From a virus, in the IMG/VR virus record IMGVR_UViG_3300033153_006111, positions 1 through 23,143 of that record: a DNA stretch of 23,143 nucleotides; one strand, 5' to 3'. The notes under the pieces are model-generated. The model saw nothing but the letters and a program-made list of their open reading frames with translations. It ran no database searches and had not been told where the DNA came from. How positions within the stretch are numbered: position 1 is the stretch's first letter; every line of letters starts with the position of its first letter. Both the position numbers and the translations under genes were made by a program. Of this stretch, positions 1,243 to 20,524 are shown one piece after another.

Positions 1243-4200
1243 TTATAGATATTTTTTAAGACTTGTGTTGTCTATTTTGAGTGTACATCCACCACTCCAT
1301 CGACCTTGTATTTTAACCGTGATAGTGTCGCTTGTCGGGGTTACATCTTGCTCATATGTGTTGTTTGCGCCATTATATGTGTATCCCTCTGCCATCGGGT
1401 CTAGCCTACAAGTGACTTCTCCACTTACAAAATCTTCTATTGCATGTACAAGCTTATATGTTTCGCCATTTTCGACTGTAATTTCCTGCCATGCTACCTG
1501 ATTGCTTGATGTAGCAAACACAAGTTTTCCTCCAGATATTGAGATGCCTGACTCCATGCTCCATTCACTACCACCATCAAAATTAGGGTCTTGTATAAGC
1601 TCTGCCCCTAATGATGCCTCTTCATTGATAGCGAATGTATTTGATACAATATCTGCTGTTGAGTTATTCGACCATGCGTCTGAATATTCACCACCTGCAC
1701 CCTCTATCGTAATGGCATTACTTGCATCATTAATCCCACTATTGGCTGTGTAATCAAATGTCCAAACCCTAAGATTGTCCGCATCTTGCACTAGATTATC
1801 TATCGTTCCGTTTGCTGGGGTGGTTTGTGTAATGTCTGCTATAGTAAAACTGTCTACCTCCGTATTGAAGGTAAGAGTAATGGTATGAGCAAGTAAATCC
1901 GTAATATCATCTATGGTGCTGATTGACACTGTAGGGATAATGGGTAGCTTTGGATACTCAGTCGGTTTGTAGCTTGTTGTAGGGGGTGTATAGTTTAGCC
2001 CCGTGTTGGCAGAAGTTAATGTTAATGCCGTATCATTATCGCCATACCAGACATCGCTTGTGCCGTCTCCATAATCAACCAATTCATACATTTTATAAGT
2101 ATTGTTCATATCAACATCGTATGCACCGGCATGGCTCACTTCACCACTGCTCACTATCATTCCTGTATCAGGATACATACCGCCTGTTAAGTCTATCGTC
2201 TTATTTTGTGTATATCTTGCTTGTGTTTCAGCTAATGTCCATGATGAACCGTCTGAATGACAAAGCTTCCCATCATACTCTGACCCACTAGAAGAAGAAT
2301 TAACAAGCCAGTAGTAACCGCCCCACTCTTTAAGGGGTTCCGTCATCAAGTAAATATAAGGGGTTTGGCTTGATGGTGATGTTTTTGTGGATGAATTTGT
2401 TACCGATTCATCTGTAAATGGCAATACTTGTGGGTCATCTGTTGTTTCAGAAGACACGGTAACAACATCCCCTATGTAAATTGTTCCTTCTGTGTAGATT
2501 ATAATCGTAGGGGAGTTTTCCACACATGAAGGGGCAGTGATTACTGCCCTCCCTGTCCCCTCTACTTCCACAACAAATTCAGTCATGCCCCATTCGTGGG
2601 CTTCTAGGTTTTCGGTCATAGTGATTTCGATGTAATTCCCACTGCTTACAACATTTGCCGAAAGAAATTCTGGTTTGACCACAGTTGAGTTATTTGTAAT
2701 GCTTAAATCGCTTATTTTTTGCAAATAATTATCGAGGTCTCTCGTATAGTTAAGTAGGGCTGATGTCGCTGACCGTATAACATTTCCTGAGTCAAGTGTC
2801 ACGGTTAGTGTTGTACCAACCTGAACTGCACTAATTGCAGAATATTGAAGGGGGTAGTAAGTATAGCCTTCATCGAATATTTCAAAATAGCCTGATTGAT
2901 GCGTATGGTCAAGCGAATTGCTCATAGTACAAGTTATTATTAGTCCTGTCGTATCTATAGACGCACTTAATATTTTATTGGATGTTGGCAACAGAGAATT
3001 GTTTGTTACGTGCTGATTAGTGAACGATGATATCTCGACATTATCGGTTTCAGTATATGAAACTAATATCACCTCGCCACTTGCAATAATATTGTCTGAT
3101 GATATTTTTATATGAATAATATTGTCACCTGCAGAAATATATGGGTATTCTCCTGTGTCATCCAGTAAAATTGGATTATCATCAGCAGTCACACTAAACG
3201 ATGAAGCACTCCAATCATATCCCTTGTATATGTCCCTATTTAGACTAACAGATATATGCTCTCCTACGGTGGTAGTAGTTGCCATATATGGGGAGGCTCT
3301 TAGTAGGGCTGTATTGTTTGATAGAGTGTAATCAACCACATCAAACCCATACTCTATCGTTGAGTGAATAAGTCTAGCTGTTGTGATATAAGTTGTTACT
3401 CCGATACAATGCTCTACTGTCAATATCCCACCATCTTGCACCACAGACGACACTTCATAGCTTACATCATCTAAAACAAGGGAAAAATTATCCTTATTGT
3501 ATATTCTGTCTTGTGGGGCAGTCATGTTTGCAATAGTCATAAAACCACCTGATTCAATGGATGCAGTGATTATCTCATTATCCTCTATGCCTGCGGTTGA
3601 CGAGTTATTTGTAATAGACAAACTTGAAAAAGGGGCAACCTCTATATTATCCGTTATATTAAAAGACACAGTTACCTCTTCATATTCATAAATGGGTCTT
3701 GATGAATTTATAAACACCCTTATTATCCCATACTCACCACTTGTTGTTTGACAGTTTGTCGCGGCGCTTAAGAGTATATCTTCACCATCTGCAAGTATCG
3801 TAAATGGCAGTGTGGCATTATCCCAAGATTGTGCATAAGTTATTCTGTCAAGATAAATATATATCTCTTCCCCTGTTGCAGAAGTAAAAGCAGAACCGCT
3901 TGGGGATGCTCTTTCAATTATTGAATTGTTTATTAAAGCAAGTTCCCCAAAAGTAACCAAGCCGCCCTCTTGTTCGGTATGGGTTAGCATAACAGACGGA
4001 TAACTTGTTATTGGATGCTCTGGGGCAATATGCAGTATATCATCAATTCTTTCTGCCGAGAGTGCGCTATAGGTTTCGTCATTTAGTGTAATTGTAAAGT
4101 TTAACGGATCATAGACGGCATCTGCTCCAGAAGGCTGTAGGGTTGCTTGGATTTTGCCTTCTGTTGTTACTATATAGTTGTGGGAAGGTGAATAGTCCGG

Positions 4201-4566
4201 ATAAGATATCCCGATAACTTCTGCACTAAATTTTATCTTTCTTGTATCTCCTCCAACGATAATCTCTTCTATCCCATCAATTATAGACATTACATAATAT
4301 GCTTGACTTCCAAAGACTTCACCATAAAGGGTAAAAGCTTCCGTACCTCCATTTAAATCTATATCATAAAAATCATGAAAAGCACTTGCTTCCTCATCCG
4401 TTGTAAGCAAAATTTCAACATTTACTATTGTAGGTATTTTTTTAACCGCACCATCCAAATAAGATTTCGCTTTCTCTTTTTTTCCTGAGTATGAGTTCCT
4501 GATAAAACATTGTGCATATTCTGGTAAATGTGCGATTGAGTCATAGTCGTATTCTGTATAAGTCAT
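1243..4566 (-). CDS. Large tail fibre/adhesin: minor-tail N-terminus, SwmB-like and Ig-like repeats, CBM-like C-terminus
   Basis: The protein is 1107 residues. Residues 1-123 form a compact module (DEEASAFHDFYDIDLNGG, then TEAFTLYGE) like the small minor-tail proteins of siphoviruses and probably anchor the protein to the tail tip. Residues about 132-727 are six beta-sandwich modules ending in xTNNS or INNS, resembling the SwmB/adhesin repeat type and alternating between two subtypes (see the repeat entry). Residues 736-870 are a Tyr/Gly/Asp-rich insert of unknown fold. Residues 878-980 resemble a bacterial Ig-like domain (ITLTFNTEVDSFTIADI). Residues 985-1107 look like a CBM4/9-type carbohydrate-binding sandwich (ELIQDPNFDGGSEW opening, KIDNTSL ending). 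The start codon directly abuts the upstream TAA (TAAATG), implying translational coupling. The likely role is receptor binding; domain names are from pattern recognition only. Confidence 0.75.
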   Translation of the reverse strand: MTYTEYDYDSIAHLPEYAQCFIRNSYSGKKEKAKSYLDGAVKKIPTIVNVEILLTTDEEASAFHDFYDIDLNGGTEAFTLYGEVFGSQAYYVMSIIDGIEEIIVGGDTRKIKFSAEVIGISYPDYSPSHNYIVTTEGKIQATLQPSGADAVYDPLNFTITLNDETYSALSAERIDDILHIAPEHPITSYPSVMLTHTEQEGGLVTFGELALINNSIIERASPSGSAFTSATGEEIYIYLDRITYAQSWDNATLPFTILADGEDILLSAATNCQTTSGEYGIIRVFINSSRPIYEYEEVTVSFNITDNIEVAPFSSLSITNNSSTAGIEDNEIITASIESGGFMTIANMTAPQDRIYNKDNFSLVLDDVSYEVSSVVQDGGILTVEHCIGVTTYITTARLIHSTIEYGFDVVDYTLSNNTALLRASPYMATTTTVGEHISVSLNRDIYKGYDWSASSFSVTADDNPILLDDTGEYPYISAGDNIIHIKISSDNIIASGEVILVSYTETDNVEISSFTNQHVTNNSLLPTSNKILSASIDTTGLIITCTMSNSLDHTHQSGYFEIFDEGYTYYPLQYSAISAVQVGTTLTVTLDSGNVIRSATSALLNYTRDLDNYLQKISDLSITNNSTVVKPEFLSANVVSSGNYIEITMTENLEAHEWGMTEFVVEVEGTGRAVITAPSCVENSPTIIIYTEGTIYIGDVVTVSSETTDDPQVLPFTDESVTNSSTKTSPSSQTPYIYLMTEPLKEWGGYYWLVNSSSSGSEYDGKLCHSDGSSWTLAETQARYTQNKTIDLTGGMYPDTGMIVSSGEVSHAGAYDVDMNNTYKMYELVDYGDGTSDVWYGDNDTALTLTSANTGLNYTPPTTSYKPTEYPKLPIIPTVSISTIDDITDLLAHTITLTFNTEVDSFTIADITQTTPANGTIDNLVQDADNLRVWTFDYTANSGINDASNAITIEGAGGEYSDAWSNNSTADIVSNTFAINEEASLGAELIQDPNFDGGSEWSMESGISISGGKLVFATSSNQVAWQEITVENGETYKLVHAIEDFVSGEVTCRLDPMAEGYTYNGANNTYEQDVTPTSDTITVKIQGRWSGGCTLKIDNTSLKKYL
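2386..4173 (-). repeat. Threefold alternating two-module (A-B) protein repeat in the adhesin
   Basis: Protein-level repeat, diverged in DNA. A modules begin near residues 136, 331 and 531 (KIQATLQPSG, IITASIESGG, ILSASIDTTG). They share an F-x-hydrophobic-D core strand and end with INNS, SNNT and ITNNS. B modules begin near residues 218, 422 and 632 and share a conserved W near their middle (QSWDN, YDWSAS, HEWGMT), an F-hydrophobic-V-x-x-D/E-G strand, and a late acidic VTVS or LVSYTETDN-type strand ending in ITNNS, VTNNS or VTNSS. The A-to-A and B-to-B distances are each about 195-210 residues, so the duplicated unit is the A-B pair. Confidence 0.6.
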
Positions 4567-5976
4567 TTAAATATCTCCTTCAACTTCAAAAGAGTATGTG
4601 GCTTTATCACCCATCCTCTTATTTTTAAGATTTGTTCTTAGTGCGTACTTGTCTACTCTTCCCACTATCTTTGTCGGTGCATATGTGTCGCTTGTTTCCT
4701 GGGTATAATTATCTTTTGAAACAGCACCATTTATGATTACCGTATTGTCTCCTATTGAAGTCCAAAGATTGTGCATTGTATTATAGTCTGTAATTTCTAT
4801 ATCACAAGTGCCAGAAAAAACATTTTTCTTTGCTCCGTTTGTGGTGATTATCTCTCCCCAGTAGTCTTTTTCTTTCAGTCCGTTTCGTCTAAAAGTGTTT
4901 TGTATTGCTAGGTTTGTAAAACCACCGTCTACAGACAATCCAAGCTTTACTCCTCCCGCTCTTCCTTTAGTCGTTGTGTGGAAAGTGACTTTTATTTGAG
5001 AGCCTACAGGTAAATCTGACGGACAGTAGAAAACTTCTGTCACTGGACAGCCCGATAGCCTTTCTCTAGTATCTCTTTTTGTACTTGGGATATAGTTCGG
5101 TATAGTATATACTACTGTGTCTCCTGTTTTAAATTCTACTGATATGCTGTCACACAATACCCCTGTAATAGCAACTGTATCTACTTCTTCATCTGATGTA
5201 AGTGTCCAGCTTTTATCTTCCGTAAACTCTGCATAGGTGTAGTTTTTGTTATCAATTACTCTTGCGCTCATAGACATATTCTTTTTAGTCCACCCAGAAA
5301 AATATCTTAGGTCGTAAACAGGGACATACATATCACTTGTAGCTATCTCTGTTTCAACAGCTTTTAATGCTGGGGTTTTGTAATATAAAGCATTTGTTAG
5401 TGGATCTATAATGAACACATAAGGCACATAAGTAGTACCGTCGTTTAATATTACTGCTTCACCTACAATATTGCTGTCATCACTTGTTACCCCATCTATA
5501 ACGCTTACTTCTTTGGAGATATTCACATCTGATGAAGCTATAGTAAAAGTCCACCCTGTACTTGATGAAGCATCTCTAAATAATTCATATTCTCTGTTTC
5601 CAAATCTCCTAAAACCATTAAAGGGTCTAGTGCCTACATCGTCTTGAACTTTTGCATAAAACTCCGTGTGTGTATAAGCCCACGGTAAATCTCCGGCAGC
5701 AGCATATTCAGAGGGTTGTTTTAATGCAGTATCGTCTACAGCGGCATAACATCTATTTATTGCGGGGGAAAGATAAGCCATATCACCTACCTCAGCATTG
5801 CCAGATGGTGGATGAGTATAAATAGAGCCGCCTGTTCTTTCATATAACACATTATTACTAACTAATCTCATGCCTTGTGCAAAAGTAACATAATAATGAA
5901 AATCATCATAATTAAAGTTTACATCTGTTACATCTGTGCTTACTATAGTTGCTTTTTTAATAATTGATACTATCAT
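4567..5976 (-). CDS. Tail-tip/minor tail protein, 469 aa, family not recognised
   Basis: The gene follows the tape measure with a TAATG one-base overlap at 5974-5978 and abuts the adhesin gene downstream, which places it at the distal-tail position. The product is beta-rich and lacks membrane segments. It has an N-terminal segment with a GNAEVGDMAYLSPAI motif (residues about 59-73), a central region with aromatic strands and NFxY motifs, and a C-terminal part ending DKATYSFEVEGDI. The C-terminal half (from about residue 230) repeatedly uses paired strands such as VDTVAITGV and DSISVEFK, consistent with stacked beta-sandwich domains. A role as a distal tail or hub protein is inferred from gene order and not from homology. 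Confidence 0.6.
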   Translation of the reverse strand: MIVSIIKKATIVSTDVTDVNFNYDDFHYYVTFAQGMRLVSNNVLYERTGGSIYTHPPSGNAEVGDMAYLSPAINRCYAAVDDTALKQPSEYAAAGDLPWAYTHTEFYAKVQDDVGTRPFNGFRRFGNREYELFRDASSSTGWTFTIASSDVNISKEVSVIDGVTSDDSNIVGEAVILNDGTTYVPYVFIIDPLTNALYYKTPALKAVETEIATSDMYVPVYDLRYFSGWTKKNMSMSARVIDNKNYTYAEFTEDKSWTLTSDEEVDTVAITGVLCDSISVEFKTGDTVVYTIPNYIPSTKRDTRERLSGCPVTEVFYCPSDLPVGSQIKVTFHTTTKGRAGGVKLGLSVDGGFTNLAIQNTFRRNGLKEKDYWGEIITTNGAKKNVFSGTCDIEITDYNTMHNLWTSIGDNTVIINGAVSKDNYTQETSDTYAPTKIVGRVDKYALRTNLKNKRMGDKATYSFEVEGDI

Positions 5977-8399
5977 TAATTAACTCCCTCTAATGGTGAT
6001 TGGTAGGATGCGTTTTCTATTGTACCCTCTATGCTTACAATTTGTTCACGTATATTTTCAAGGCTTATTACTACATCACCTATTGTTTTTTCCTGGTATT
6101 CTGCATCTTTTAGTTTCGCTATATAGGTATCAAGTTTGATTGCATACTCTTCTCTTGATGTGCTGATCTTTTTTTCATACTCTAGTTGTTTATATAGAGC
6201 ATCAAAATATCCCTGTGTGTTGCCCGTTGATAGTTGTTGTTGGGCAAATCTATCTAAGTAATCAGCCTTCTCTATAGAGTTGAGATAACTTAGTGATCCA
6301 CTATAAGCTTTTTCTATTCTATTTAAAATATCTTCATGGAAAGCAAGTACATTTTTGGCTTCATCGACTTGTAATCGCATAGTTTCATCAGATAACCTTT
6401 GCTTCTCATCGAGTATATCTTGTGCATCTGCAAGAGCTTGTTTCTCTGCGTCTTTTTGAAGTTCCAAGTATTTCTCTATCTTGTATACACGTTCCTCTTC
6501 CAGTCTGTCAAGTTCATCATAATAATCGCTATAAACATCTTGCAATCTTAAAAGTTCTGCTAATCGTTTTGTATGCCCTATTGATCCTGTTACCGCTAAC
6601 TCTTGCATAGCTTCCACTTCTGCCCTATAAGCATCTGCTGTGCTGTATAGCCCTGTAGTAGATAACTCTTTGACTCTTAGCGCTTGCTTCTCTGTATCGG
6701 TATAGAAGTTTTCTATATACCCGTTGATGTTTGTCAAAGCATTATCCATTCCTCCGGAGGCGGCAATGAATGATTGTGATACAACTACTGCTACTCTTCC
6801 CAAGTGTCTGAAACTGCCTCCCATTCTATCAAAGGCATGATTTATATTTTCCATTTCATAGGTAACCCTCATCATAGTTTCCGTATATCTCTCACCAGCT
6901 TTTTGGAAGCTTCCTATGTATGGGGCTATTGATTTCGCTATCTCATCTAAGTCTGCACCTATCGCACCACTTATCATCGCACTGATTTCTTCTTGTGTTT
7001 TGCCTTCAAAATCTAGTTTATGCAAAGTTCCTGCAAAGCTATTTAACACGTTTTCTGCTGTGGTAATACCTAATGCTTGACTTGCACTTACTATGGCACT
7101 TATACCGCTGTCGTATGCTTGTGTAATGGCTCTTTGTGTTGCATCATCTACATTCCTTCTGGTAGTATCTTTTGTTGTGTTAGATGATAGCCCCCACCAT
7201 GAAGTTCTAGTTGTTTGTGTCACATCTAAAGTTTGTGCGATAATGTCATTTATTGTGTTGGCTTGTAGTTCCAACCCTGTAAATAATGTTTTTATATCTT
7301 TGGAGCTAAACCCTGCAAGGCCTCCTGTCGAAAAGCTATCTTTGTTTGAGAAGCTAAAATTTGAACTTAATGAAACAGATGCTTTGTCAGATTGCTCTAC
7401 TAATGCAGCTAAATTATCAAATATCCCTCTTGAATACACGAGATTTCTAGTAAGTGACCAATCCATACTTTCAAGGAGATTTACAATACTGTTACTTTCT
7501 GGATCATTTGCCACATTATTTTTCTTTTGCCAGTCATCTTTTGTTATTGGTGTACCGCTACTGAAAAGTCCACCAAGAAGAGTTCCAAGTATTGAAAATG
7601 CACCTCCGACAAGGAAACTACCAAATGAACTAAGCCCACCAAAGGCATCTGAAAGCCCTTTTGATAGTTTTTTGCTGGTATCACTTATGAAGTTAGACAT
7701 CATTGTACCGCCGATAGTGTCAAAGAAGCCCTGAAAACTGTCTACTAAGTCACCGTGTATCATTGCGTCAAAAGAATTTGCAAAGCTGTCTGTAAACCGT
7801 TCATTGTATTCCTGTATTGCGTCTAATCCATCTTTAGCCGCTTTATCTGCCGCCTTAGCTTTTGCCTCAGCAATATCTTTAATGCCTTTGATGGTTTTCC
7901 TAATAAGTGTTTCTTCTGATTTTATTCTATCTTTCGGTTTATAGTCCTCTATGGATTTGATATATTTTCTAACTTTTTTATCTACCTCATCCATACTTTT
8001 GCCCGTATCATTTAGTATTTGAGATATTTCTTTTTCTTCTTTTTTATAATTTACTATGGCACCCGTGAGTTCTTCTACAAGTTTTATTTGCTCCTCTTTC
8101 TGCTTGTAGTAGAGTTTCATTTGGCTCATAGAATAGCCTGTGGTGCTTGTGTTGGTTATCCCTTCCAGCTTGTCTTTTGCAAAAGATAGCGCACCTTGAC
8201 CTATCACTCGCATAAGTTTAGTGTACCCAGAAGCCACTATGTCAAATACGGCTATAACAGATTTCCAAGCCTTGATAACCATACCAGCGGCGGCAATAGC
8301 GCCTTTTGCCATAGCTTGAATAGCCTTAGCAAATGCCTTGGTAGCTTCTACCCCATTAACCCCTAGTTCATGTGTAAGGTCTTTTATTAACTCTTTCAT
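5976..8399 (-). CDS. Tail tape measure protein, C-terminal part (split from the N-terminal part by TAG)
   Basis: This 807-codon reading frame is in exactly the same frame as the upstream 260-residue reading frame; the two are separated only by TAG and CCG codons. It opens with helical, Ala-rich segments (residues about 10-60) that contain a hydrophobic stretch, then a coiled coil (about 85-200). Gly/Ser-rich hydrophobic stretches lie at about 255-285 (FGSFLVGGAFSILGTLLGG), and very long charged helices run from about 590 to the end (ELDRLEEERVYKIEKYLEL). This is the usual tape-measure composition. No Shine-Dalgarno sequence precedes the ATG at 8399, so independent initiation is doubtful. If the TAG is read through, or is an error or mutation, the full protein would be 1069 residues, which by the usual rule of about 0.15 nm per residue implies a tail near 160 nm. 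Confidence 0.8.
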   Translation of the reverse strand: MKELIKDLTHELGVNGVEATKAFAKAIQAMAKGAIAAAGMVIKAWKSVIAVFDIVASGYTKLMRVIGQGALSFAKDKLEGITNTSTTGYSMSQMKLYYKQKEEQIKLVEELTGAIVNYKKEEKEISQILNDTGKSMDEVDKKVRKYIKSIEDYKPKDRIKSEETLIRKTIKGIKDIAEAKAKAADKAAKDGLDAIQEYNERFTDSFANSFDAMIHGDLVDSFQGFFDTIGGTMMSNFISDTSKKLSKGLSDAFGGLSSFGSFLVGGAFSILGTLLGGLFSSGTPITKDDWQKKNNVANDPESNSIVNLLESMDWSLTRNLVYSRGIFDNLAALVEQSDKASVSLSSNFSFSNKDSFSTGGLAGFSSKDIKTLFTGLELQANTINDIIAQTLDVTQTTRTSWWGLSSNTTKDTTRRNVDDATQRAITQAYDSGISAIVSASQALGITTAENVLNSFAGTLHKLDFEGKTQEEISAMISGAIGADLDEIAKSIAPYIGSFQKAGERYTETMMRVTYEMENINHAFDRMGGSFRHLGRVAVVVSQSFIAASGGMDNALTNINGYIENFYTDTEKQALRVKELSTTGLYSTADAYRAEVEAMQELAVTGSIGHTKRLAELLRLQDVYSDYYDELDRLEEERVYKIEKYLELQKDAEKQALADAQDILDEKQRLSDETMRLQVDEAKNVLAFHEDILNRIEKAYSGSLSYLNSIEKADYLDRFAQQQLSTGNTQGYFDALYKQLEYEKKISTSREEYAIKLDTYIAKLKDAEYQEKTIGDVVISLENIREQIVSIEGTIENASYQSPLEGVN

Positions 8400-8402
8400 C
8401 GG

Positions 8403-8405
8403 CTA
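8403..8405 (-). other. In-frame amber codon interrupting the tape measure
   Basis: The minus strand reads TTC TAG CCG ATG AAA GAG. TAG is the only non-sense codon between two reading frames that together form one normal tape measure, and the protein logic runs across it: APLF, then X, then PMKELIKDL. A C-to-T change in CAG (Gln) would create it. The base after TAG is C, a context often associated with leaky termination. Confidence 0.85.
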
Positions 8406-9185
8406 GAATAAAGGTGCTGTAATCTTTCCAGACATTTTATCCCAAGCGACACCAAAGTTAGAAACGGCAGTAGCCCAGTTATCTTGTGACTGTCCTGTCT
8501 CTTTCATCTTGTCGCTAAGTAGCCCCACAAGGTCTGCAGTGCCTTTAACTTCCTCTTTGGTAAGTCCTAGTGCCTTTGCCATTTTACCAAAGCCGGATGT
8601 GCTAATCCATGTACCTCTTGCAAGGTCATCGATACCGGTTGAAAGTTCTTGTGCTGATAGTCCGAAATTAGATGCGGTATTAGTAACAAGTTTAAGTATG
8701 TCTACCTGGTCTTTTGCAGATACATTTACTTGATCCATCCCAGGTTTCATAAGTGCATAAATATCAATAAGTTCTGTTATCCCCATAGCTGTTTGACTGT
8801 TTGCTTTTTCAAGTATAGCCATAGTTTCTGCTGTTTCGTTATTAATCATATTTATACGCTCTAAAGCTCCAACTTGTCTGCCAAGCGTGGTTTCATATCC
8901 TCTTGATGCTGATACCATAGCCTTTAGTTTAGAGGATGAAGCATCCATTTGGATATTGTATTTTAGTGAGCCCGAAAGTAGTGACGACACCCCTTTAGCA
9001 AGAGCAACAACACCTACCGTAAGTGCCGTATAGCCTGCTACAGATTTAAGGATAGAAGAGTTAAGACCCGTGTTAGACTTTGCAGTTTTGCCCATAGCTA
9101 CATCGGTTTTACCAAACTCTTTTTGGAGTCTTTTAAGTTGGGCTTCTGCCTGTTTGCCTTTAACTGAAATCTCTATAGTTGCCAT
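8403..9185 (-). CDS. Tail tape measure protein, N-terminal part (TP901-core-like)
   Basis: The start at 9185 is preceded by AAGGAG and lies 10 bases after the tail-chaperone stop. Residues 1-45 are a charged helical lead (KGKQAEAQLKRLQKEF). Residues 45-72 are hydrophobic (GYTALTVGVVALAKGV). Residues about 140-250 carry the typical tape-measure core, with SNFGLSAQELSTGIDDLARG, GFGKMAKALGLTKEEVKG and NFGVAWDKMSGKITAPLF. In other phages that last stretch continues directly into a long helical region, as it would here if the TAG at 8403 were sense. A 260-residue protein stopping at this point would be unusually short for a tape measure. The tape measure fixes tail length and is ejected with the DNA. 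Confidence 0.85.
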   Translation of the reverse strand: MATIEISVKGKQAEAQLKRLQKEFGKTDVAMGKTAKSNTGLNSSILKSVAGYTALTVGVVALAKGVSSLLSGSLKYNIQMDASSSKLKAMVSASRGYETTLGRQVGALERINMINNETAETMAILEKANSQTAMGITELIDIYALMKPGMDQVNVSAKDQVDILKLVTNTASNFGLSAQELSTGIDDLARGTWISTSGFGKMAKALGLTKEEVKGTADLVGLLSDKMKETGQSQDNWATAVSNFGVAWDKMSGKITAPLF

Positions 9186-9195: not shown

Positions 9196-9468
9196 TTATT
9201 TATCGTACAATTTCCTTAATGCTTCTGCATCTACTTCAAGAAACTCACTGCTATTCTTGACTTCTTCAAACTGTTCATCATTTAGGTGAACTAATTGTCC
9301 TATGCTCATTACTGTTTTAATGTGATCTTTAACACTAAGATTATTCCACTTTAAAACATCTTTCGCACTTTGGTATAGATATGAACTACCCATACCGTTT
9401 GATGTTGAAACTACATGACCGCAAATATAACTTATCACCGTACAAAACTCATCGAATGAGTCGGGCAT
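9196..9468 (-). CDS. Tail assembly chaperone, distal (T-like) part reached by -1 frameshift
   Basis: From the ATG at 9468 this is a 90-residue protein, rich in acidic residues and helices, placed immediately before the tape measure as in lambda gpT. The frame is open upstream of that ATG through the end of the preceding gene, as far as a TGA at 9568-9570. A -1 shift at the GGGAAAC site (9513-9519) would therefore join the 158-residue protein to it through 15 extra residues (LILLIATYLRTSDKD), giving a fusion of 263 residues. The ATG at 9468 has only a weak AAAGAT upstream, so production mainly as the fusion is more likely. Such fusions bind the tape measure during tail assembly. Confidence 0.75.
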   Translation of the reverse strand: MPDSFDEFCTVISYICGHVVSTSNGMGSSYLYQSAKDVLKWNNLSVKDHIKTVMSIGQLVHLNDEQFEEVKNSSEFLEVDAEALRKLYDK

Positions 9469-9509: not shown

Positions 9510-9986
9510 TTAGTTTCCCTTTTGATTCTTTGCATCTTTTGCAATAGTATCTAGGTACTCTGAATAGTCACCATTTTCTTCTATATACTCCGATAAGGTG
9601 TCTTTGTCTTTACCGCCTACAGAGATAATGAAAGTTTCTTTTGACGCTTCTATCATTTTGTCAACACCACCAAGCTCTTCAAAGTTATTTTCTACTTCAT
9701 CTCTTTGGATATATAACTTTTCTAAGGTGTTTACTGAACTTAAAAGCTCTCGTGATTTGCCATCTATCTCTCTTAATGCTTCGATCTTAATCTCTGTTAC
9801 TTTAACTCGTCTGTCTAATTTCTGATTTTGTTTGAACAAGTCAAGGATAGTTTCATTTTCCTTACCAAGTTGTTTTTGCTCTTTTCTAGAAGGCTCTTTA
9901 TAATCAACATTAAATGTTTTTAAGACCTTTTTCCCACTGTCTACTATGTCTAATTTTATGCCCACTCTTGGTGTCATTTTTGCCAT
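9510..9986 (-). CDS. Tail assembly chaperone, proximal (G-like) protein
   Basis: The product is 158 residues, highly charged and mostly helical. An N-terminal beta region (GIKLDIVDSGKKVLKTFNVD) is followed by long helices with many Glu and Lys (residues about 30-115). Position between tail tube and tape measure, size and the C-terminal slippery site all match gpG-type tail chaperones. The reading frame ends KGN-TAA, and the codons GGA AAC before the stop form the last six bases of the slippery heptamer. The gene lies downstream of a terminator-like structure that separates it from the tail tube gene, which would lower its expression relative to the tube. Confidence 0.75.
   Translation of the reverse strand: MAKMTPRVGIKLDIVDSGKKVLKTFNVDYKEPSRKEQKQLGKENETILDLFKQNQKLDRRVKVTEIKIEALREIDGKSRELLSSVNTLEKLYIQRDEVENNFEELGGVDKMIEASKETFIISVGGKDKDTLSEYIEENGDYSEYLDTIAKDAKNQKGN
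9513..9519 (-). promoter_or_regulatory. Slippery heptamer GGGAAAC for -1 ribosomal frameshifting
   Basis: On the minus strand the zero frame reads AAG GGA AAC TAA. The heptamer G GGA AAC fits X XXY YYZ exactly, and both tRNAs can re-pair one base back as GGG AAA. It sits directly before the zero-frame stop, and the -1 frame stays open into the 90-residue reading frame. Lambda uses GGGAAAG at the corresponding place. I see no strong hairpin or pseudoknot downstream. Confidence 0.8.
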
Positions 9987-10065: not shown

Positions 10066-10518
10066 TTATGCTGAAGCTACTGTTTCAACAGGTAGTGTAA
10101 GTTGCTCAACCGTAAATTCGGTTTTATTTACTTCACCTTTTCTAAAGCTGTGTTTATACCCTGTTACCAGGTAATCTGCTACATACTGCGTACCGTTTGA
10201 CCCGCCAGTGTTATTCGCCTCATGTCTGACAGTAATCGTCTTGTCAGCCATAGTGGTTGCCGCGTGTGCAGCCTTGATAATAACATTTGCTGCATTCCCA
10301 GATGCCTCTGACCATAGATATGAATATGTTTGTGAACCAAATTCAAGCTCATTTAATGCTGTGTAGGGTACTGCGCTTGAAAGACAATACTCTTTGTTTG
10401 TCGAATATGTACCAAAATCTATGATAGCTTCTCCTCCGAATACACATATTGACTCGAAAGATGATGCCTCTGAACCAGCACCAACTTCAACAATCGTTAA
10501 ATTTCCTAATGTTGACAT
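10066..10518 (-). CDS. Major tail tube protein
   Basis: The product is 150 residues and beta-rich. Gene order (after the tail terminator, before the frameshifted chaperones) and size fit the siphovirus tail tube protein. Features include an N-terminal beta strand (GNLTIVEVGAG), a central Ala/Thr-rich segment (NVIIKAAHAATTMADKTITV), and a C-terminal TGYKHSFRKGEVNKTEFTVE region of the kind that completes the tube beta-sandwich. The start has AAAGGATAAATC before the ATG. A possible hairpin terminator lies just after the stop, which would favour high expression of this gene over those downstream. Confidence 0.7.
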   Translation of the reverse strand: MSTLGNLTIVEVGAGSEASSFESICVFGGEAIIDFGTYSTNKEYCLSSAVPYTALNELEFGSQTYSYLWSEASGNAANVIIKAAHAATTMADKTITVRHEANNTGGSNGTQYVADYLVTGYKHSFRKGEVNKTEFTVEQLTLPVETVASA

Positions 10519-10528
10519 GATTTATCCT

Positions 10529-10912
10529 TTACTTATTAAATATAGAAGACACTTGAAATGAGATAACACCCTCAAACAAAGTATCTTCCATTCTGTTGAT
10601 TATTCCACTAAACTCCAACTTATCAAGCTCTAGCTTATTCGTGGTACTGTTTGCCGTAAACTCATCAAGCACATCGCTAATGAGTTTTTCCGTCTTTCCT
10701 ATGTTTTTCTCACAGCAAAAGATATTATATCCCTTGACATCCTTACGAGTAGTGCCTTGAAAGCCCTGTGCCTCATTTGTGATGCCGTAGGATTGAATAA
10801 CGATATAAGGTGGTGCGATATTGATTTTTTCACCAAACATATATACGGGGGTAGTCTCACTGTATGCTTTGATATGATTTGCTATCTCTACATACTGTTC
10901 ATAACTTGTCAT
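10529..10912 (-). CDS. Tail terminator/completion protein
   Basis: The product is 127 residues and lies immediately upstream of the tail tube gene, where siphoviruses encode the gpU/gp17-type tail terminator. It has an N-terminal helix (YEQYVEIANHIKAYSE), a strand INIAPPYIVIQSYG with the diproline turn often seen in this family, a mixed middle, and a C-terminal strand GVISFQVSSIFNK. The ATG overlaps the upstream stop as ATGA. The family is assigned from length, order and secondary-structure pattern, so the exact homology is uncertain. Confidence 0.55.
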   Translation of the reverse strand: MTSYEQYVEIANHIKAYSETTPVYMFGEKINIAPPYIVIQSYGITNEAQGFQGTTRKDVKGYNIFCCEKNIGKTEKLISDVLDEFTANSTTNKLELDKLEFSGIINRMEDTLFEGVISFQVSSIFNK

Positions 10913-11223
10913 AATCGCTCCATATCGTATTCAAATTTTTTAAGCATAGGCTCTCCACCTTTCGGCCATTGGTCAGAGCCATACATCCTGCCTTCATACT
11001 CTCTTCTTCCAGCCCATAAGATAGAAGCATATTCCATATTATTCGTGATAGTCCAAGTAAAATTGTCGGTTCGCACCAATCGCCAATCATCTCGAAACTC
11101 CCCTGTACTAACTGGGGCTTCTAATTTCAAATCATCAAAGAACTTAACAACCCGTATGTTTACTTTTTTAATGTCTTTTTTAACACCGATGTCAAACTCT
11201 TTTACTAGGTTGCCTGTTATCAT
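10909..11223 (-). CDS. HK97 gp10-like head-tail/tail completion protein
   Basis: The product is 104 residues. It shows the gp10-type signature: a helical N-terminus (VKKDIKKVNIRVVKFFDDL), then APVSTGEFRDDWRL, then a NNMEYASILWAGRREYEGRMYG segment in which the protein surface of the neck ring is usually formed. ATGA overlaps at both ends bind it to its neighbours. In related phages this protein closes the head-to-tail joint. Confidence 0.65.
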   Translation of the reverse strand: MITGNLVKEFDIGVKKDIKKVNIRVVKFFDDLKLEAPVSTGEFRDDWRLVRTDNFTWTITNNMEYASILWAGRREYEGRMYGSDQWPKGGEPMLKKFEYDMERL

Positions 11224-11600
11224 TTTCTTATATGCAACTCATATATTGCATCTTTGCCTTGGGCTTCACTAGGTTTAACAGAGATAATGTTCCAAACTTC
11301 TTGGTCATCATCTTCAAATTTCCATGTGTCGCTTACTTCTTGATCAAAGACTACAGTTATCATTGCATCCCCGGCTTTCACCCTATCGGCTATATTGCCA
11401 TTGACAAACGAACCGATAAGCTCTCTGCCTGTAAGATATTCCCTATGGTAGAGCACAGCCGTTTCTGAGTCCTCACCTATTGTTTCACCTGTTACTTCAT
11501 CTTCTGTAGCTGGCACTATTAGAAGCCCGCTTGAACCAAAGCCAGTAATGAGCTTGGTAGCAACGGCTTTTAATCCATCTATAAAGTTAGTATTAGGCAA
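11220..11600 (-). CDS. Head closure/head-tail connector protein with a TTG start
   Basis: The product is 126 residues, beginning PNTNFIDGLKAVATKLI after the initiator. The start codon is TTG at 11600, chosen because AGAGGA precedes it at about 7 bases and because it gives an 8-base overlap with the upstream gene, like the other couplings here. The protein has a beta-barrel-like body (TAVLYHREYLTGRELIGSF, then AMITVVFDQEV) and ends YELHIRK. Together with its position between the adaptor and the gp10-like protein this points to a head closure (stopper) protein. Exact family uncertain. Confidence 0.55.
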   Translation of the reverse strand: MPNTNFIDGLKAVATKLITGFGSSGLLIVPATEDEVTGETIGEDSETAVLYHREYLTGRELIGSFVNGNIADRVKAGDAMITVVFDQEVSDTWKFEDDDQEVWNIISVKPSEAQGKDAIYELHIRK

Positions 11601-12039
11601 TGGTAAATCCTCTTGCCCCTGCTACTCCTACGCTATCCCTAAGGCAGCCATTGAGTAGACTTACGACTACAGGAGGAAAAGAGTTTATGTCTCCTACCCC
11701 TGTATTGTTTTTACTGTCTAGATTATATTCGACTTCAAGGCTTCCGACTTTCGCCTTCTTGTATTCATCATCATTTGTGATAATGAAAGAAAGATATGTG
11801 CCGTCATTCTCTAAATCGAACTGGATTAGAAGTGTTTGAGCCATAATAAAGCTACAAGTATCGCTTGCCACTGCTATCATATTGATAGCCATTGCAGACA
11901 CCACGAGCCTTTGCTCTTTCTCTGCCGTGTCTAGTAGACCCCACTTGACACCATCACCGATAAGTTCTAGTGCCGTTGTAGCGTCTGCTACATTCTGAAA
12001 AGTGTTCCAATCATCTGCGGGATATACTGTCAATGCCAT
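11593..12039 (-). CDS. Head-tail adaptor (DnaT-like/gp6-like) protein
   Basis: The product is 148 residues. The N-terminus MALTVYPADDWNTFQNVADA followed by alpha-helices (RLVVSAMAINMIAVASDT) matches the phage family annotated as DnaT-like ssDNA-binding or head-tail adaptor, found just downstream of coat genes. The C-terminal half contains VSLLNGCLRDSVGVAGARGF, a helix and a Gly-rich end. The ATG overlaps the stop of the 46-residue gene (TAATG). In the virion, such adaptors bind the portal and receive the closure protein. Confidence 0.55.
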   Translation of the reverse strand: MALTVYPADDWNTFQNVADATTALELIGDGVKWGLLDTAEKEQRLVVSAMAINMIAVASDTCSFIMAQTLLIQFDLENDGTYLSFIITNDDEYKKAKVGSLEVEYNLDSKNNTGVGDINSFPPVVVSLLNGCLRDSVGVAGARGFTIA

Positions 12040-12179
12040 TATTTAGCCTTTTTAGCTGGTGCTTTTCGTACAGGCTTTACCCCGTACTCTTTATCTGCCT
12101 TTGGGTCGAAATCATCTTTATTGATAATTTTCCACCCTCTGCCGCCTTCTGCAACTATTTTAATTGTTTCAGTTCTCAT
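12039..12179 (-). CDS. Small hypothetical protein (46 aa) between coat and adaptor
   Basis: The ATG at 12179 is preceded by AGGATAAGATC, whose AGGA lies within the last codons of the coat gene, and the gene ends TAA in a TAATG overlap with the adaptor. The product has a beta-type start (ETIKIVAEGGRGWKIINKDD), then a FDPKADKEYG turn, then a Lys/Ala/Pro tail (VRKAPAKKAK). Small proteins with an INKxDFDP motif are common just after phage coat genes; their function is not established. Coding is supported by the overlaps on both sides. Confidence 0.65.
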   Translation of the reverse strand: MRTETIKIVAEGGRGWKIINKDDFDPKADKEYGVKPVRKAPAKKAK

Positions 12180-12183
12180 GATC

Positions 12184-13329
12184 TTATCCTAAAAGAATTG
12201 CCGTGTGCTCTGGCTTGATGTTTTTCTGACCCCAAGCGATAGCAAGTTCGTATCTTACTTTTCTGTAACCGCCATAAATAGCAACTTCAAAAGCAAGCCC
12301 AGAAATAGGGTCTGTGATGATTGTTCTATCAATAGCCAAGTCACCCTCTTGTGGTAGTGCTGGTGCTCTTGTTACAAGCTGGATTGCCTCACGGTCAAAT
12401 GCCATGTTCATAGTACCATTGCTCCCGATAGTCATAGCTACACCATCTGCTAGTGTTTCTTTAAGCCCCGGCGCTGCAATTACTACATCCATGTCACCAT
12501 CACCGGCGAATCCTGTAGTAACTACATATTTGTTGTCGTCACCAGCAAAAGTGATAACGTCACCAGCCACAGCCGTACCCGTACCCGTATCAACATGGAT
12601 AGTAGTAGTCCCGACTGGATAAGTAGAGCCTGTGTCTGTTACATAAGAGGCTCCTGTGCCTTTAGTAGATACGTTTACTTTAGCACTCTCTCTGATCGCG
12701 AAACCATGAACATCTAAAAGTACACCTTGTCTAAGCAAGTCAGTACCGCCAGCCTCGTTTGCTTTAGTGAGGTTAGTCAATGTTCTCATATTTGCGCCGG
12801 CTGTAGAGTCGATTACTAAGTTCATATCGCTAAGAGGTGCGCCGTTATCAGCAAGAATCTTTCTTACTTGTGCCGTATCTGCCATAGTTGACGAGAATGG
12901 AGTTGTGCCAGCCGTACCGTATGCTCTTGATGTTGTGATACACAATGCTGCAAGGTCTGTTTCAATCTCGTTTGTAAGGCTTCTCATTGCCTGTGCAATC
13001 ATTTTACCTTGAATAGTCAGATAGCCTGGTCCGTTGTTTAGTCCAAGTTGTTCTTCACCCACAAAGCCAAACTCTGCCACTCTTGATTTAGAAATCGTGA
13101 TTGTAGTGTTTGTAATTGTCTGATCTGTTGGTTCTGGAATTGCCATAGCTGGTGTAGTATCACCTACGTTTGCAGCCCCTGCGATTGGAATTACAAGGTC
13201 AGCTCCCACTGATACTCTCTCTGCTCCGGAGTTTCTGCCTACTGCTGGAATAAATCCAACCTGCTCTCTTGAAATTGTATCTAGTGCCGCATATAAGTCT
13301 GGCATTAGATTTGTTAATGTATTACCCAT
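12184..13329 (-). CDS. Major capsid protein, P22-coat-like
   Basis: The product is 381 residues. The N-terminus (MGNTLTNLMPDLYAALDTIS) and the following GAERVSVGADLVIPI, plus the C-terminal region with FDREAIQLVTRAPALPQEGD, then DPISGLAFEVAIYGGYRKVRYEL and AWGQKNIKPEHTAILLG, match the P22 coat family seen also in many siphoviruses. A Gly/Thr-rich stretch at about residues 235-300 (VDTGTGTAVAGDVITFAGDD) would be the inserted surface domain. AAAGGGTAAATT precedes the ATG. The scaffold gene lies upstream, as expected for procapsid assembly. Confidence 0.85.
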   Translation of the reverse strand: MGNTLTNLMPDLYAALDTISREQVGFIPAVGRNSGAERVSVGADLVIPIAGAANVGDTTPAMAIPEPTDQTITNTTITISKSRVAEFGFVGEEQLGLNNGPGYLTIQGKMIAQAMRSLTNEIETDLAALCITTSRAYGTAGTTPFSSTMADTAQVRKILADNGAPLSDMNLVIDSTAGANMRTLTNLTKANEAGGTDLLRQGVLLDVHGFAIRESAKVNVSTKGTGASYVTDTGSTYPVGTTTIHVDTGTGTAVAGDVITFAGDDNKYVVTTGFAGDGDMDVVIAAPGLKETLADGVAMTIGSNGTMNMAFDREAIQLVTRAPALPQEGDLAIDRTIITDPISGLAFEVAIYGGYRKVRYELAIAWGQKNIKPEHTAILLG

Positions 13330-13339
13330 AATTTACCCT

Positions 13340-14071
13340 TTAATTTAGTTTCCCACCGTCAGCCATAAATTTAGCTCTCTGGGTGGGTTGTAGTTTTTCA
13401 AAATTATCTCTAGACATTACTTGTTGTCCTTCTGTATAATTACCGCCAGTGTTTCCAGCACTTGTTTTTGTAGTGGGCTTTCTAAAGGATTTATACGAGT
13501 CACTATTCAACATCTCAGAAGCATAATCTACTAGTCCAAGTGGTTTACCGTCTTTCATGATAGGGATTCTTTGATCGCCTACTGTTTGCATTGGTAATAC
13601 TTGCCCTTCGTTCATGCCAATCGACTTTCTAAGTTCACCCCTAAACACATCTCTCAGAAGTGGGTCATCAGTCAAATGCTCAGATACAGAGTTTAGGCCT
13701 CTATCAGCCTCAATATCCATTTTAAAATCAAGCATCTTTAGATCACTCTCTTTTCGGATATTCTGTATTTCTGTTTCTTTTTCTGATAGCTGTTTTGCTA
13801 AATCTTTAGCAGAGTCGCTTGTTCCCAGTTCTTTAAGTCGTGCTGATACTGTATCTCTGTTAATAAGGCTTAGTCCTAATACCTCTTTAACTAAAGCGTT
13901 CCCAGCTTTGTACTTATCTTTTTCGATTTTAATGTCATTGAATTGGTTAGTAAGACTATCTATCGTTGCCTTTGCTTGGTCATTGTTAGATGTTGTCTTG
14001 CTCTCTATCGTTCCTATTAGTGCCGTTGCTTCTGCATTGTCTCCGACTAATTTCAAAAGTTCTTCAAACAT
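13340..14071 (-). CDS. Capsid scaffolding protein
   Basis: The product is 243 residues, starting MFEELLKLVGDNAEA at 14071, where AAAGG precedes the ATG at about 6 bases. An in-frame ATG at 14128 would add 19 residues, but it lacks a ribosome-binding site and overlaps a probable -10 box. The protein is a long charged coiled coil (residues about 25-115, with SEKETEIQNIRKESDLKML), then a region with PLLRDVFRGELRKSIG and a Gly/Asn-rich linker. It ends with a short helix (RDNFEKLQPTQRAKFMADGG) typical of scaffold C-termini that bind coat. It lies directly before the coat gene. Confidence 0.75.
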   Translation of the reverse strand: MFEELLKLVGDNAEATALIGTIESKTTSNNDQAKATIDSLTNQFNDIKIEKDKYKAGNALVKEVLGLSLINRDTVSARLKELGTSDSAKDLAKQLSEKETEIQNIRKESDLKMLDFKMDIEADRGLNSVSEHLTDDPLLRDVFRGELRKSIGMNEGQVLPMQTVGDQRIPIMKDGKPLGLVDYASEMLNSDSYKSFRKPTTKTSAGNTGGNYTEGQQVMSRDNFEKLQPTQRAKFMADGGKLN

Positions 14072-14118
14072 TTTATGCCTTTGTGTGATTTGTTTATGAG
14101 CTACTGCTTCAATGCCAT

Positions 14119-14127
14119 AGTATATCA
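14119..14127 (-). promoter_or_regulatory. Possible extended -10 promoter for scaffold and coat operon
   Basis: The minus strand reads TGATATACT, a TGn extension with a five-of-six -10 hexamer. It lies about 48 bases upstream of the chosen scaffold ATG. No clear -35 box is seen. It would let the coat operon be transcribed independently of the terminase transcript, which otherwise has to cross the plus-strand island. A second, weaker candidate is TTAACC (14210-14215) with TATAAA (14186-14191) at an 18-base spacer. Confidence 0.35.
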
Positions 14128-14143
14128 TAACTTTTTCATCAAG

Positions 14144-14160
14144 TGATTAAAATTTAATCA
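14144..14160. repeat. Perfect 8-bp palindrome between divergent genes
   Basis: TGATTAAA-A-TTTAATCA is a perfect inverted repeat with a one-base centre, in the region between the leftward scaffold gene and the rightward endonuclease gene. It is AT-rich and not followed by a T-tract beyond its own arm, so it looks more like a binding site than a terminator. No protein can be assigned. Confidence 0.45.
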
Positions 14161-14234
14161 GTAAGTTTATTTGAGTTGTTTAATTTTTATACAATTTCTA
14201 TCTTAAATTGGTTAAAAGCTATACAGCTAAACTA

Positions 14235-14263
14235 TTGATGATTTTGTGGTGATTTGGTATAAT
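14235..14263 (+). promoter_or_regulatory. Sigma-70-type promoter for the homing-endonuclease-like gene
   Basis: TTGATG (14235-14240), a 17-base spacer, then TGG-TATAAT (14255-14263). This is the best promoter in the window. The inferred start near 14270 gives a leader of about 57 bases with two short hairpins, GCC-CTTC-GGC (14273-14282) and CTTTC-GTAGA-GAAAG (14298-14312), the second ending just before the AAAGGAG site. The leader could affect translation, but no known riboswitch is recognised. Confidence 0.7.
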
Positions 14264-14326
14264 CTTTGATAAGCCCTTCGGCGAGAAAAAGCATATCTTT
14301 CGTAGAGAAAGTTTAAAGGAGTTTGA

Positions 14327-14932
14327 ATGAAGGAGTGTACAAAGTGTGGTGCAACTAAAACACTAAAAGAATTTTACAACAACAAAAATACTAAAGATGG
14401 TAAAACATACAATTGTAAGAGTTGTTCAAATATTAGAAAAGAAAAAAGGTCAAGATCAAGAGATGGTTTAGTTGTTGTTTTGTATTGCTCTCAGAGGGCA
14501 AATTCTAAGCACCGTAATGACCCTATGCCTAACTACACAATACAGGAGTTTACGGGCTGGTTATTCTCTCAGCCAAACTTTGAGACAATATATAATGCCT
14601 GGGTAGATAGTGGATATAATAGAAATTTGCGCCCTAGCCCTGATAGAGACAACAAGAAGGGAGATTATGACTATTTGCCTTATGATTTAAACAGATTAAG
14701 ACTAGTTACATTTGGGGATAATTTACGAAAGTCTCATAAGGATAGAAGGAGCGGGATAAACAATAAGCACAACAAAAAAGTAAAACAATTAACAAGGGGT
14801 GGGAACACAATCAAAGAATATCACTCTACGCAACAAGCATCAAGAGAAACAATGGTCGCGCAATCTTCCATCTCTCGTGTTTGTGCGGGCAAACTTGGCT
14901 CAGCAGGTGGGTACATTTGGGAATTTGTATAA
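14327..14932 (+). CDS. Free-standing homing-endonuclease-like protein with zinc finger and NUMOD1 domain
   Basis: The product is 201 residues. An N-terminal zinc finger (C4, C7, C30, C33) resembles those of phage HNH endonucleases. Residues about 100-135 carry RPSPDRDNKKGDYDY followed by NLRLVTFGDN-like spacing (NRLRLVTFGDN), a motif found in phage homing nucleases. Residues about 152-201 form a NUMOD1 DNA-binding module (TIKEYHSTQQASRETM and GSAGGYIWEF). AAAGGAG precedes the ATG. The gene is on the strand opposite to all neighbouring head genes, with its own promoter, as expected for a mobile intronless homing gene. The catalytic residues are not certain. Confidence 0.7.
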   Translation: MKECTKCGATKTLKEFYNNKNTKDGKTYNCKSCSNIRKEKRSRSRDGLVVVLYCSQRANSKHRNDPMPNYTIQEFTGWLFSQPNFETIYNAWVDSGYNRNLRPSPDRDNKKGDYDYLPYDLNRLRLVTFGDNLRKSHKDRRSGINNKHNKKVKQLTRGGNTIKEYHSTQQASRETMVAQSSISRVCAGKLGSAGGYIWEFV

Positions 14933-14972
14933 GAATTATTTATGAACTTAGTAAATTTTATTTATTATCTTT

Positions 14973-14994
14973 ATTTTGTGGATTGGTATATAAT
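14973..14994 (+). promoter_or_regulatory. Second plus-strand promoter, similar to the first
   Basis: ATTTTGTGG-ATTGG-TATATAAT. The element ATTTTGTGG at 14973-14981 is the same as at 14241-14249 in the first promoter, followed in both by ATT(T)GG and a -10 box. The -10 is either TATATA behind TGG or TATAAT at 14989-14994. The expected transcript would start about 20 bases before the ATG at 15022, after a GTAAAGGAG site. Confidence 0.5.
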
Positions 14995-15021
14995 TAAGGA
15001 TTAAACGTAAAGGAGAATAAA

Positions 15022-15432
15022 ATGAAATATCCAAGATATTTTGAAAATATAATAACGGGAAATGTTTATAAGTTTGAATCTGTAGATACTGCAAGACTAT
15101 ATAGTGCAAAGGATAGTGTTACGAGACTTTCTTGCGATTTTGCCTTAAAAAAAGTGACTCCACACACAGATAACAGTATTTGGATGGCGATGTCCATCGA
15201 CGAAAAAATACACAATAAAGAAACAAAAATAGAGATAGGCAAAATGACAATAGATCAAATCAAAGAAGCCAAAGAAGAACTAGAGCATGATATTCAAAGA
15301 CGTATTATGATATTTGAGAAAGACACTAAGGTTAAAGTTAGTGCGGTATATTTAAAGATTTTCGAGACATCTGTGATGGGAGGTAGTGAGGTTTTACGTC
15401 ACATTGAAGCTAATATGGAGGTGAGGATATGA
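15022..15432 (+). CDS. Hypothetical phage protein, 136 aa
   Basis: The gene has a strong AAAGGAG site and its own promoter. The N-terminal half (YFENIITGNVYKFESVDTA) looks beta-rich. Residues about 75-95 form a charged helix (TIDQIKEAKEELEHDIQRR). The C-terminal segment (VKVSAVYLKIFETSVMGGSE) suggests a strand and loop and ends at a TGA that overlaps the next ATG. I do not recognise the family. It sits with two still smaller genes in an ATGA chain, so the three products may act together. Similar small proteins occur among early or accessory phage genes. Confidence 0.65.
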   Translation: MKYPRYFENIITGNVYKFESVDTARLYSAKDSVTRLSCDFALKKVTPHTDNSIWMAMSIDEKIHNKETKIEIGKMTIDQIKEAKEELEHDIQRRIMIFEKDTKVKVSAVYLKIFETSVMGGSEVLRHIEANMEVRI

Positions 15433-15557
15433 AAAAGCCTAAAACACTAGATGAGGCTATCCACGATTTACATATAGCTTGGGATAAATTCAAATTTGAA
15501 TTATTTGCACCAATTAAAAAAATGCTGCTTAAAATAATTAAGGCACTAACTAAATGA
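15429..15557 (+). CDS. Very small hypothetical protein (42 aa)
   Basis: The gene overlaps the 136-residue gene (ATGA at 15429-15432) and the following gene (ATGA at 15554-15557). The product begins KKPKTLDEAIHDLHIAWD and continues as a mostly helical, Lys-rich amphipathic peptide with a hydrophobic C-terminal face (KKMLLKIIKALTK). GAGGTGAGGAT before the ATG can serve as ribosome-binding site. Function unknown; an antihost or membrane-active peptide is possible but unsupported. Confidence 0.55.
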   Translation: MKKPKTLDEAIHDLHIAWDKFKFELFAPIKKMLLKIIKALTK

Positions 15558-15688
15558 AACAACTAATCCATAAAATCAAAGAAGCCATAGACGCTGGGTG
15601 CTATGATGAGGCTTTGCGGTTGCTTGATGAGTTGGAGAAGGTGATGGGTGCTTTAGTAACAGACAGCGAGTTTGTGGAAGCTAAGTAG
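15554..15688 (+). CDS. Very small hypothetical protein (44 aa), TAG-terminated
   Basis: Reads through IHKIKEAIDAGCYDEALRLL and DELEKVMGAL, giving a two-helix acidic peptide; the AxxxGxYDEALxLLDEL pattern resembles single TPR-like helical hairpins. It is coupled to the previous gene by ATGA. It ends in TAG at 15686-15688, immediately followed on the other strand by the stop of the MuF gene. If the TAG were read through, only five more codons would be added before TAA. Confidence 0.55.
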   Translation: MKQLIHKIKEAIDAGCYDEALRLLDELEKVMGALVTDSEFVEAK

Positions 15689-18065: not shown

Positions 18066-19511
18066 CTAGAATATCTGTATTTGGTTGAGTGCTGTTGTCT
18101 GTATTGCTTTTTTAGGTATCTCAAAGTTTATAAAATCCACCACTACATCTACGGTATCATCATGCTTGTGTGAGTCGTCTGCTTTGAATTTCACAAATTC
18201 TGACACTATTATACCACTTATTGCGTCATTTCTTCTAAGGTGCATTGCTCTGTCTTTTATCTTTGTGGTAGCCCTAAGCAATCTAGCATACTTACCCTCT
18301 TTCCTTTGAATGGCTTTTATTAGATAATCTGTCTCATCTTCTAATGCTTGGATAAGTCCTGTTCCGGAGTCTTTATCTTCTATAGAAACTCTTATCTTTT
18401 TCTTACCTGTTATAGTTAATGCTTCCTCATAAAAGTGCATGAAAGTAGTTTTTAGTTGAGGTACTTTTATTTTGCCACGATACATTTTAATAAGATAGCC
18501 TTCATTTTTGTAACATTTGCCAAATAACCCGAATGCCGTATAATCGTTGTATTGCTTAACTTTAGATGCTGTATCACAAAATATAGTGTACTCTTTTATC
18601 TCTGGTAGAGTGTCATACATCAACATCCACTCTTTTTCGATCATTTCACCCTTTTCAGGTGTAGGGTCTTGTGAGTATTGAATATCATTCATAAGTGCCA
18701 GGGCTTTTTCGTCACTGGCTTTGGCTTCCCATAGTGTGCCGTGTGGTAAATCGTGATCTATGTAAGTTCCGTTTTGCGAATAGGTATAGTTTTCGTCTAT
18801 GAATGATGGTAAAACTAAATGATGCCACCCCTCGTCTGTATCGTTAAGTAGATGTTCTGTAAAGTCGTTATCGGATATTCTCTGCATAATAACTATAACA
18901 GGAACATTATCATGCGCTGGTCTTGACCTGAATGTACTCTCCCACCTTTGGTTTACTGATTGCATTTTAGTACCACTAAAGGCATCATCCGGCTTGGTCG
19001 GGTCATCTATCAGCATAAGCCCACTAATAACATCTTCATCATCGAGATACCCTGCCCTAAATCCTGTAATGGCTGAACCGGAAGCAGAGGCTTTAAACGC
19101 ACCGCCTTTATTGGTGTTCCATAAGCCTTTGGATTTAGTATCTGCCTTGAAGTCCACATACGGAAAGAGATATTGATATTCTTCTGAATTAATTATGGTT
19201 TTGATCTTGCCTGAGTTGTCTTTTACAAGTTCGTCTGAATAGCTGATATGTAGTGATTTGGCTCTGGGGTTGAGTGCATATAGATAGGAGAATAAGCACC
19301 ATACCGTTATAGAGGTTTTTGTGTAGGCTGGGGGGATGTTTATTATTAGTCTTGTTATATCCCGGGTAATTACTCTTTGGATAGTGTCGCATATTAGCTC
19401 TTGATGTGGGGATAGCTTGTAGTGTCTACCCTCTAATACCTCTAAGGCAAAAGTAGTGAACTTTTTAAAGTCTAAGAGAAGTTCTCTTGCTATCGCTTCT
19501 TTGTTATCCAT
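18066..19511 (-). CDS. terL: Terminase large subunit
   Basis: The product is 481 residues. The ATPase part has a Walker-A-like loop at residues 58-67 (NIPPAYTKTS), which departs from the usual GxGKS form but matches the NIPPxxxKS type of phage terminases; Walker B is LMLIDDP (165-171). The nuclease part shows an RNase-H-like acidic set: D313 (FCDTA), E378/D379 (SIEDKDSG) and D451/D452 (KHDDTVD). The ATG overlaps terS by 8 bases. The gene ends in TAG; readthrough would add only a few residues before a TAA that overlaps the portal start. Packages DNA into procapsids through the portal. Confidence 0.9.
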   Translation of the reverse strand: MDNKEAIARELLLDFKKFTTFALEVLEGRHYKLSPHQELICDTIQRVITRDITRLIINIPPAYTKTSITVWCLFSYLYALNPRAKSLHISYSDELVKDNSGKIKTIINSEEYQYLFPYVDFKADTKSKGLWNTNKGGAFKASASGSAITGFRAGYLDDEDVISGLMLIDDPTKPDDAFSGTKMQSVNQRWESTFRSRPAHDNVPVIVIMQRISDNDFTEHLLNDTDEGWHHLVLPSFIDENYTYSQNGTYIDHDLPHGTLWEAKASDEKALALMNDIQYSQDPTPEKGEMIEKEWMLMYDTLPEIKEYTIFCDTASKVKQYNDYTAFGLFGKCYKNEGYLIKMYRGKIKVPQLKTTFMHFYEEALTITGKKKIRVSIEDKDSGTGLIQALEDETDYLIKAIQRKEGKYARLLRATTKIKDRAMHLRRNDAISGIIVSEFVKFKADDSHKHDDTVDVVVDFINFEIPKKAIQTTALNQIQIF

Positions 19512-20364: not shown

Positions 20365-20524
20365 CTACGATGTAAAGAACTTCCGTTCTTGGTGTTCGCC
20401 CTTCTTGCCTACATTGAAACTTTCCGTTGGTCTATGATAACCCAAGCTACATAACACGAGTGTATACTAAACATTTAGTTCTTTCGGCCTGATGTTGTTC
20501 TAATATCTTATTTTGCTTTTTCAT
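20365..20524 (-). pseudogene. Stand-alone NrdD-type glycyl-radical domain, interrupted by 7 nt
   Basis: The ATG at 20524 overlaps the NinG stop (ATGA). The first frame gives 25 residues ending RTKCLVYTRVM, then TAG (20447-20449). In the next frame, beginning at 20442, GYHRPTESFNVGKKGEHQER and KFFTS follow, then TAG. Joined, they form RVM-GYHRP, the RVxGY motif around the radical glycine of class III ribonucleotide reductase C-termini, in a short form like the small phage proteins annotated NrdD-like. The seven bases TAGCTTG between ATG and GGT break the frame exactly at M-G of the motif. The cause is a frameshift mutation, sequencing error or (less likely) programmed bypass. If repaired, about 51 residues. 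Such proteins could patch an oxygen-damaged reductase. Confidence 0.7.

Follow-up and report, generated by a model that had tools for sequence, protein, structure and literature searches.

We identified a tail tape-measure gene that is interrupted by a single in-frame TAG codon, and this codon most likely represents one chance nonsense substitution, or a consensus error of the metagenome, in an otherwise ordinary gene with no programmed signal at the site. The window analyzed here, which is the whole IMG/VR record IMGVR_UViG_3300033153_006111, is a linear stretch of 23,143 bases with 38% G+C, and is probably a fragment of a phage genome. Its minus strand bears tailed-phage head and tail genes, which encode small and large terminases, a portal, a Mu F-like protein, a major head protein, a chaperone pair, the tape measure and further tail proteins. 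The source is an uncultured tailed phage, and its tape-measure gene is of the ordinary siphophage type. Scanning of bacterial genomes with the tape measure gave no match and the terminase retrieved two distant terminases, and therefore a host could not be named. Other genes recognized in the window were:

1243-4566, minus strand, 1,107-aa protein containing a Big_12 bacterial Ig-like domain (E=4e-09)
20521-21090, minus strand, lambda NinG-like protein (E=1e-43)
22389-22934, minus strand, HNH endonuclease (E=4e-12)

The first of these genes lies downstream of the tape-measure block, and its product shows apparent internal repeats. Two plus-strand genes (14327-14932 and 15022-15432) are found inside the minus-strand structural block. 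The former encodes a weakly homing-endonuclease-like protein (I-HmuI NUMOD-like, E=0.008, below the cut-off), and the pair is possibly a mobile insertion.

Two adjoining ORFs share one tape-measure frame

The tape-measure frame is distributed over two minus-strand ORFs, 9185-8403 (260 aa) and 8399-5976 (807 aa):

8403..9185, minus strand, first 260 codons of the tape-measure gene (N-terminal part), up to TAG (from PHROG 10093 and homologues)
8403..8405, minus strand, in-frame TAG (sense codons in 8/8 distinct homologues)
5976..8399, minus strand, last 807 codons of the tape-measure gene (C-terminal part), with an ATG lacking a Shine-Dalgarno sequence (from homologues)

A preliminary description had placed these ORFs in the same frame with only TAG CCG between them, and reading of the frame confirmed this, with TAG at 8405-8403 followed by CCG at 8402-8400 and then by ATG at 8399-8397. 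Translated, the frame gives ...KMSGKITAPLF*PMKELIKDLTHELG..., and its stop is the only internal one in ~1,069 codons. A good ribosome-binding site is present upstream of the first ATG at 9185 (AATAAGGAGAGTTAA). The second ATG at 8399 had been described as lacking such a site and, in agreement, no Shine-Dalgarno-like run was seen in the upstream ATTACAGCACCTTTATTCTAGCCG. A search for a better internal start for the 807-aa part gave Shine-Dalgarno-like starts only deep inside, at codons 778 and 817.

The N-terminal part matched PHROG 10093, tail length tape measure, with E=3.5e-11, while the match to Pfam TMP_3 (E=2.5e-05) was under the family cut-off. The gene is similar over nearly its full length to siphophage tape measures (PHROG 10093, Pfam TMP_3 and IMG/VR homologues), and shares with them a place directly after a chaperone pair, which here is probably a frameshifting one. 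A tape-measure gene is expected to run as an uninterrupted single frame; here the TAG at 8405-8403 breaks the frame, and we therefore named it an interrupted tape-measure gene.

The chaperone pair, assigned by position and frame since the first ORF had no family match, consists of ORFs 9510-9986 and 9196-9468 on the minus strand, with a slippery site at the end of the first:

9513..9519, minus strand, GGGAAAC, slippery heptamer in the tail chaperone pair (from frame and position)

ORF 9986-9510 ends GGA AAC TAA, so that the heptamer stands immediately before its stop, and a -1 slip here gives an open frame into the second chaperone ORF, up to 9196. With 4 sites in the window against 2.4 expected by chance, GGGAAAC itself is no rarity, and it is the frame and position that count. 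One of the homologous contigs (L073) has GGGAAAG at the matching place, and the slippery sequence of TP901-1 also begins with GGGAAAG (PMC4493119). The -1 frameshift at 9513-9519 appears to be a genuine recoding event, located just upstream of the tape measure and of the well-known kind seen in the lambda gpG/gpGT pair.

Homologues carry a sense codon at the site of the stop

We compared the site across eight distinct homologues from viral contigs in IMG/VR, after merging duplicates (L003 and L074 are from the same contig as L002, and L006 from the same contig as L005). An intact 1,027-aa homologue aligned with residues 47 to 1052 across the stop, with 35% identity (tblastn, E ~1e-142). This homology across the stop shows that the two halves are one gene, both ORFs together encoding one tail tape-measure protein. 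The preliminary view of an otherwise normal tape-measure gene split by one TAG is thereby borne out. All eight homologues are open through the TAG site; four of them reach a natural stop within the available stretch and the other four run off its end.

The comparison of this codon with related phages, which had been proposed earlier as a check, showed a sense codon in every distinct homologue, namely GAG (L002), GGA (L004 and L005), GAC (L073, L090 and L091), GAT (L088) and GAA (L089). The residues facing TAG are therefore Asp, Glu or Gly at a variable position, and the earlier suggestion of a former Gln codon (CAG-to-TAG) is not borne out. In contrast to this position, F260 before the TAG and K264, K268 and T271 after it are invariant in all nine sequences. 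Invariant residues on both flanks indicate that the stop does not lie in an inter-domain linker. A low-confidence AlphaFold model of residues 1-400 (mean pLDDT 46.5), in which Q replaced the TAG, placed a helix at residues 253-276 across the junction, which at a pLDDT of ~40 is a weak hint. The TAG codon falls at a variable position, acidic or small in the homologues, within what is probably a helix.

No near-identical copy of the phage was found in the IMG/VR scans, where the relatives showed ~30-47% protein identity over long alignments. Among named phages the N-terminal part had no match, and the C-terminal part had distant matches only. Three of the related contigs (L002, L004 and L005) have the tape measure and neighboring tail genes in common with the window. 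When compared with window positions 10066-18054, and judged by their translations only, they carry HK97-type-looking portal and head genes unlike those of the window (L002 also has a ClpP-like protein). It appears that head and tail modules have been swapped.

The sequence downstream of the stop is as conserved as in intact homologues

Over residues 262-1069, the window protein is 29% identical to L004 and 32% to L005, and the intact L002 protein is likewise 29% and 32% identical to the same two, although at such distances the comparison is blind to a short constraint-free period. Third-position G+C is 0.296 before the stop and 0.295 after it. By these identities, the divergence of the 807-aa part does not exceed that of the intact homologues, and the interruption would therefore be recent, an error, or tolerated. 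The downstream part has thus shared the constraint on its intact relatives until recently, or still does. A long conserved downstream frame is, however, also expected from a tolerated or read-through stop.

Readthrough or separate translation of the second ORF as improbable alternatives

Rare decoding of TAG by near-cognate tRNAs could yield a few full-length tape measures, which might suffice for each virion, since few copies are needed per tail (a predicted hexamer; PMC4493119). We consider such leaky or programmed readthrough quite improbable. In its favor, the only internal stop in the frame is TAG, and the base after it is C rather than U, a following U being linked with efficient termination; this preference, however, is weak for UAG (PMC5289835). 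A programmed stop should be conserved in relatives, whereas a stop was present in none of the eight at this site. No stimulatory structure was detected either, as folds around and after the TAG gave z values of -0.08, 1.29, -1.48 and -0.36 against shuffled sequence, none more than 1.5 standard deviations better than the shuffles. An E. coli reporter gave TAG readthrough that averaged 0.03% at 37 C, and 0.5-0.8% at 18-25 C (PMC11126739), levels that would leave the truncated protein in great excess. In TP901-1, tape-measure deletions of 30 residues, at either the start or the end of the protein, render the phage non-infectious (PMC5099701). Since both ends are needed there, a split gene should be costly to the phage and, extrapolating across distant phages, we expect that the 260-aa product could not function by itself. 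Frameshift rescue of the tape-measure frame was ruled out, as slippage at the TAG, read from the sequence, leads to TGA after 2 codons in the +1 frame and after 12 in the -1 frame.

A true split, in which ribosomes reinitiate at the ATG three bases past the TAG and produce two tape-measure chains, is very improbable. The closeness of TAG, CCG and ATG would suit translational coupling, and the second frame is long and conserved. On the other hand, its ATG lacks a Shine-Dalgarno sequence, all relatives make a single chain, and the junction falls in a conserved stretch rather than a linker, with the weakly predicted helix running over it. No natural split tape-measure gene was found in the literature searched.

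TAG serves as a normal stop in the phage

The stops of the 27 ORFs taken as genes are TAA in 17, TGA in 8 and TAG in 2, these being the N-terminal part of the tape measure and the large terminase:

18066..19511, minus strand, large terminase, TAG-ended (from homologue alignment and stop usage)

The terminase aligned with a 51%-identical homologue over residues 3-477 of 481. As the alignment extends almost to the last residue, its TAG lies at the expected gene end; readthrough here would add 5 codons before a TAA. None of the other genes among the 27 ORFs has an in-frame TAG, and no tRNA gene, including a suppressor tRNA, was detected within the 23,143-base window. The phage uses TAG as an ordinary stop. 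Phage-wide recoding of TAG (code 15 type) is ruled out by there being one in-frame TAG and a TAG-ended terminase, and the earlier judgment that such recoding was unlikely agrees with this stop usage.

TAG does occur inside the tape-measure genes of recoded crAss-like phages such as phAss-1, as in the window, and tRNA genes could lie elsewhere since the record is linear and probably a fragment; however, TAG-recoded phages have many TAG-bearing genes and often a suppressor tRNA (41 ORFs and three suppressor tRNA genes in phAss-1; PMC10607447), as against one in-frame TAG, a TAG-ended terminase and no tRNA in the window, which makes an amber-suppressing host, or a suppressor tRNA on the phage genome beyond the fragment, extremely unlikely.

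Origin and meaning of the interruption

A nonsense change or error is favored because all eight homologues are open with sense codons while conservation on the flanks is unbroken, because conservation of the 807-aa part equals that in intact homologues, and because TAG is a normal stop with no tRNA in the window, no unusual fold and no frameshift rescue. Of the origins offered in the preliminary description, a mutation or sequencing error is thus the one upheld, whereas leaky readthrough and an amber-suppressing host received no positive support. One sense codon of the gene would then read TAG in the contig, either through a mutation that is real and recent in the phage or prophage sampled, or through a consensus error, and from one contig we give these two about equal odds. 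If the mutation is real, the phage would probably be defective, or a minority variant. We infer that the change is recent and without function. Against this reading stands the TAG in the consensus of the assembled contig.

Amber mutants of phage structural genes resemble the interrupted tape measure in that one stop breaks a gene that is intact elsewhere and probably essential, although the present case is known from one metagenome contig only; the siphophage homologues found for the tape measure, in contrast, are uninterrupted at this codon. The case bears mainly on annotation, where both ORFs are best recorded as a single interrupted tape-measure gene instead of two tail genes, and where the phage should be kept out of counts of recoded phages. 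It is quite unlikely that the phage lives with the TAG, through two chains made by reinitiation or through a rare readthrough product, with tape-measure dosage set at termination. If TAG were indeed fixed in a productive phage, the gene would provide a natural example in which a key structural protein is produced as two pieces or via readthrough.
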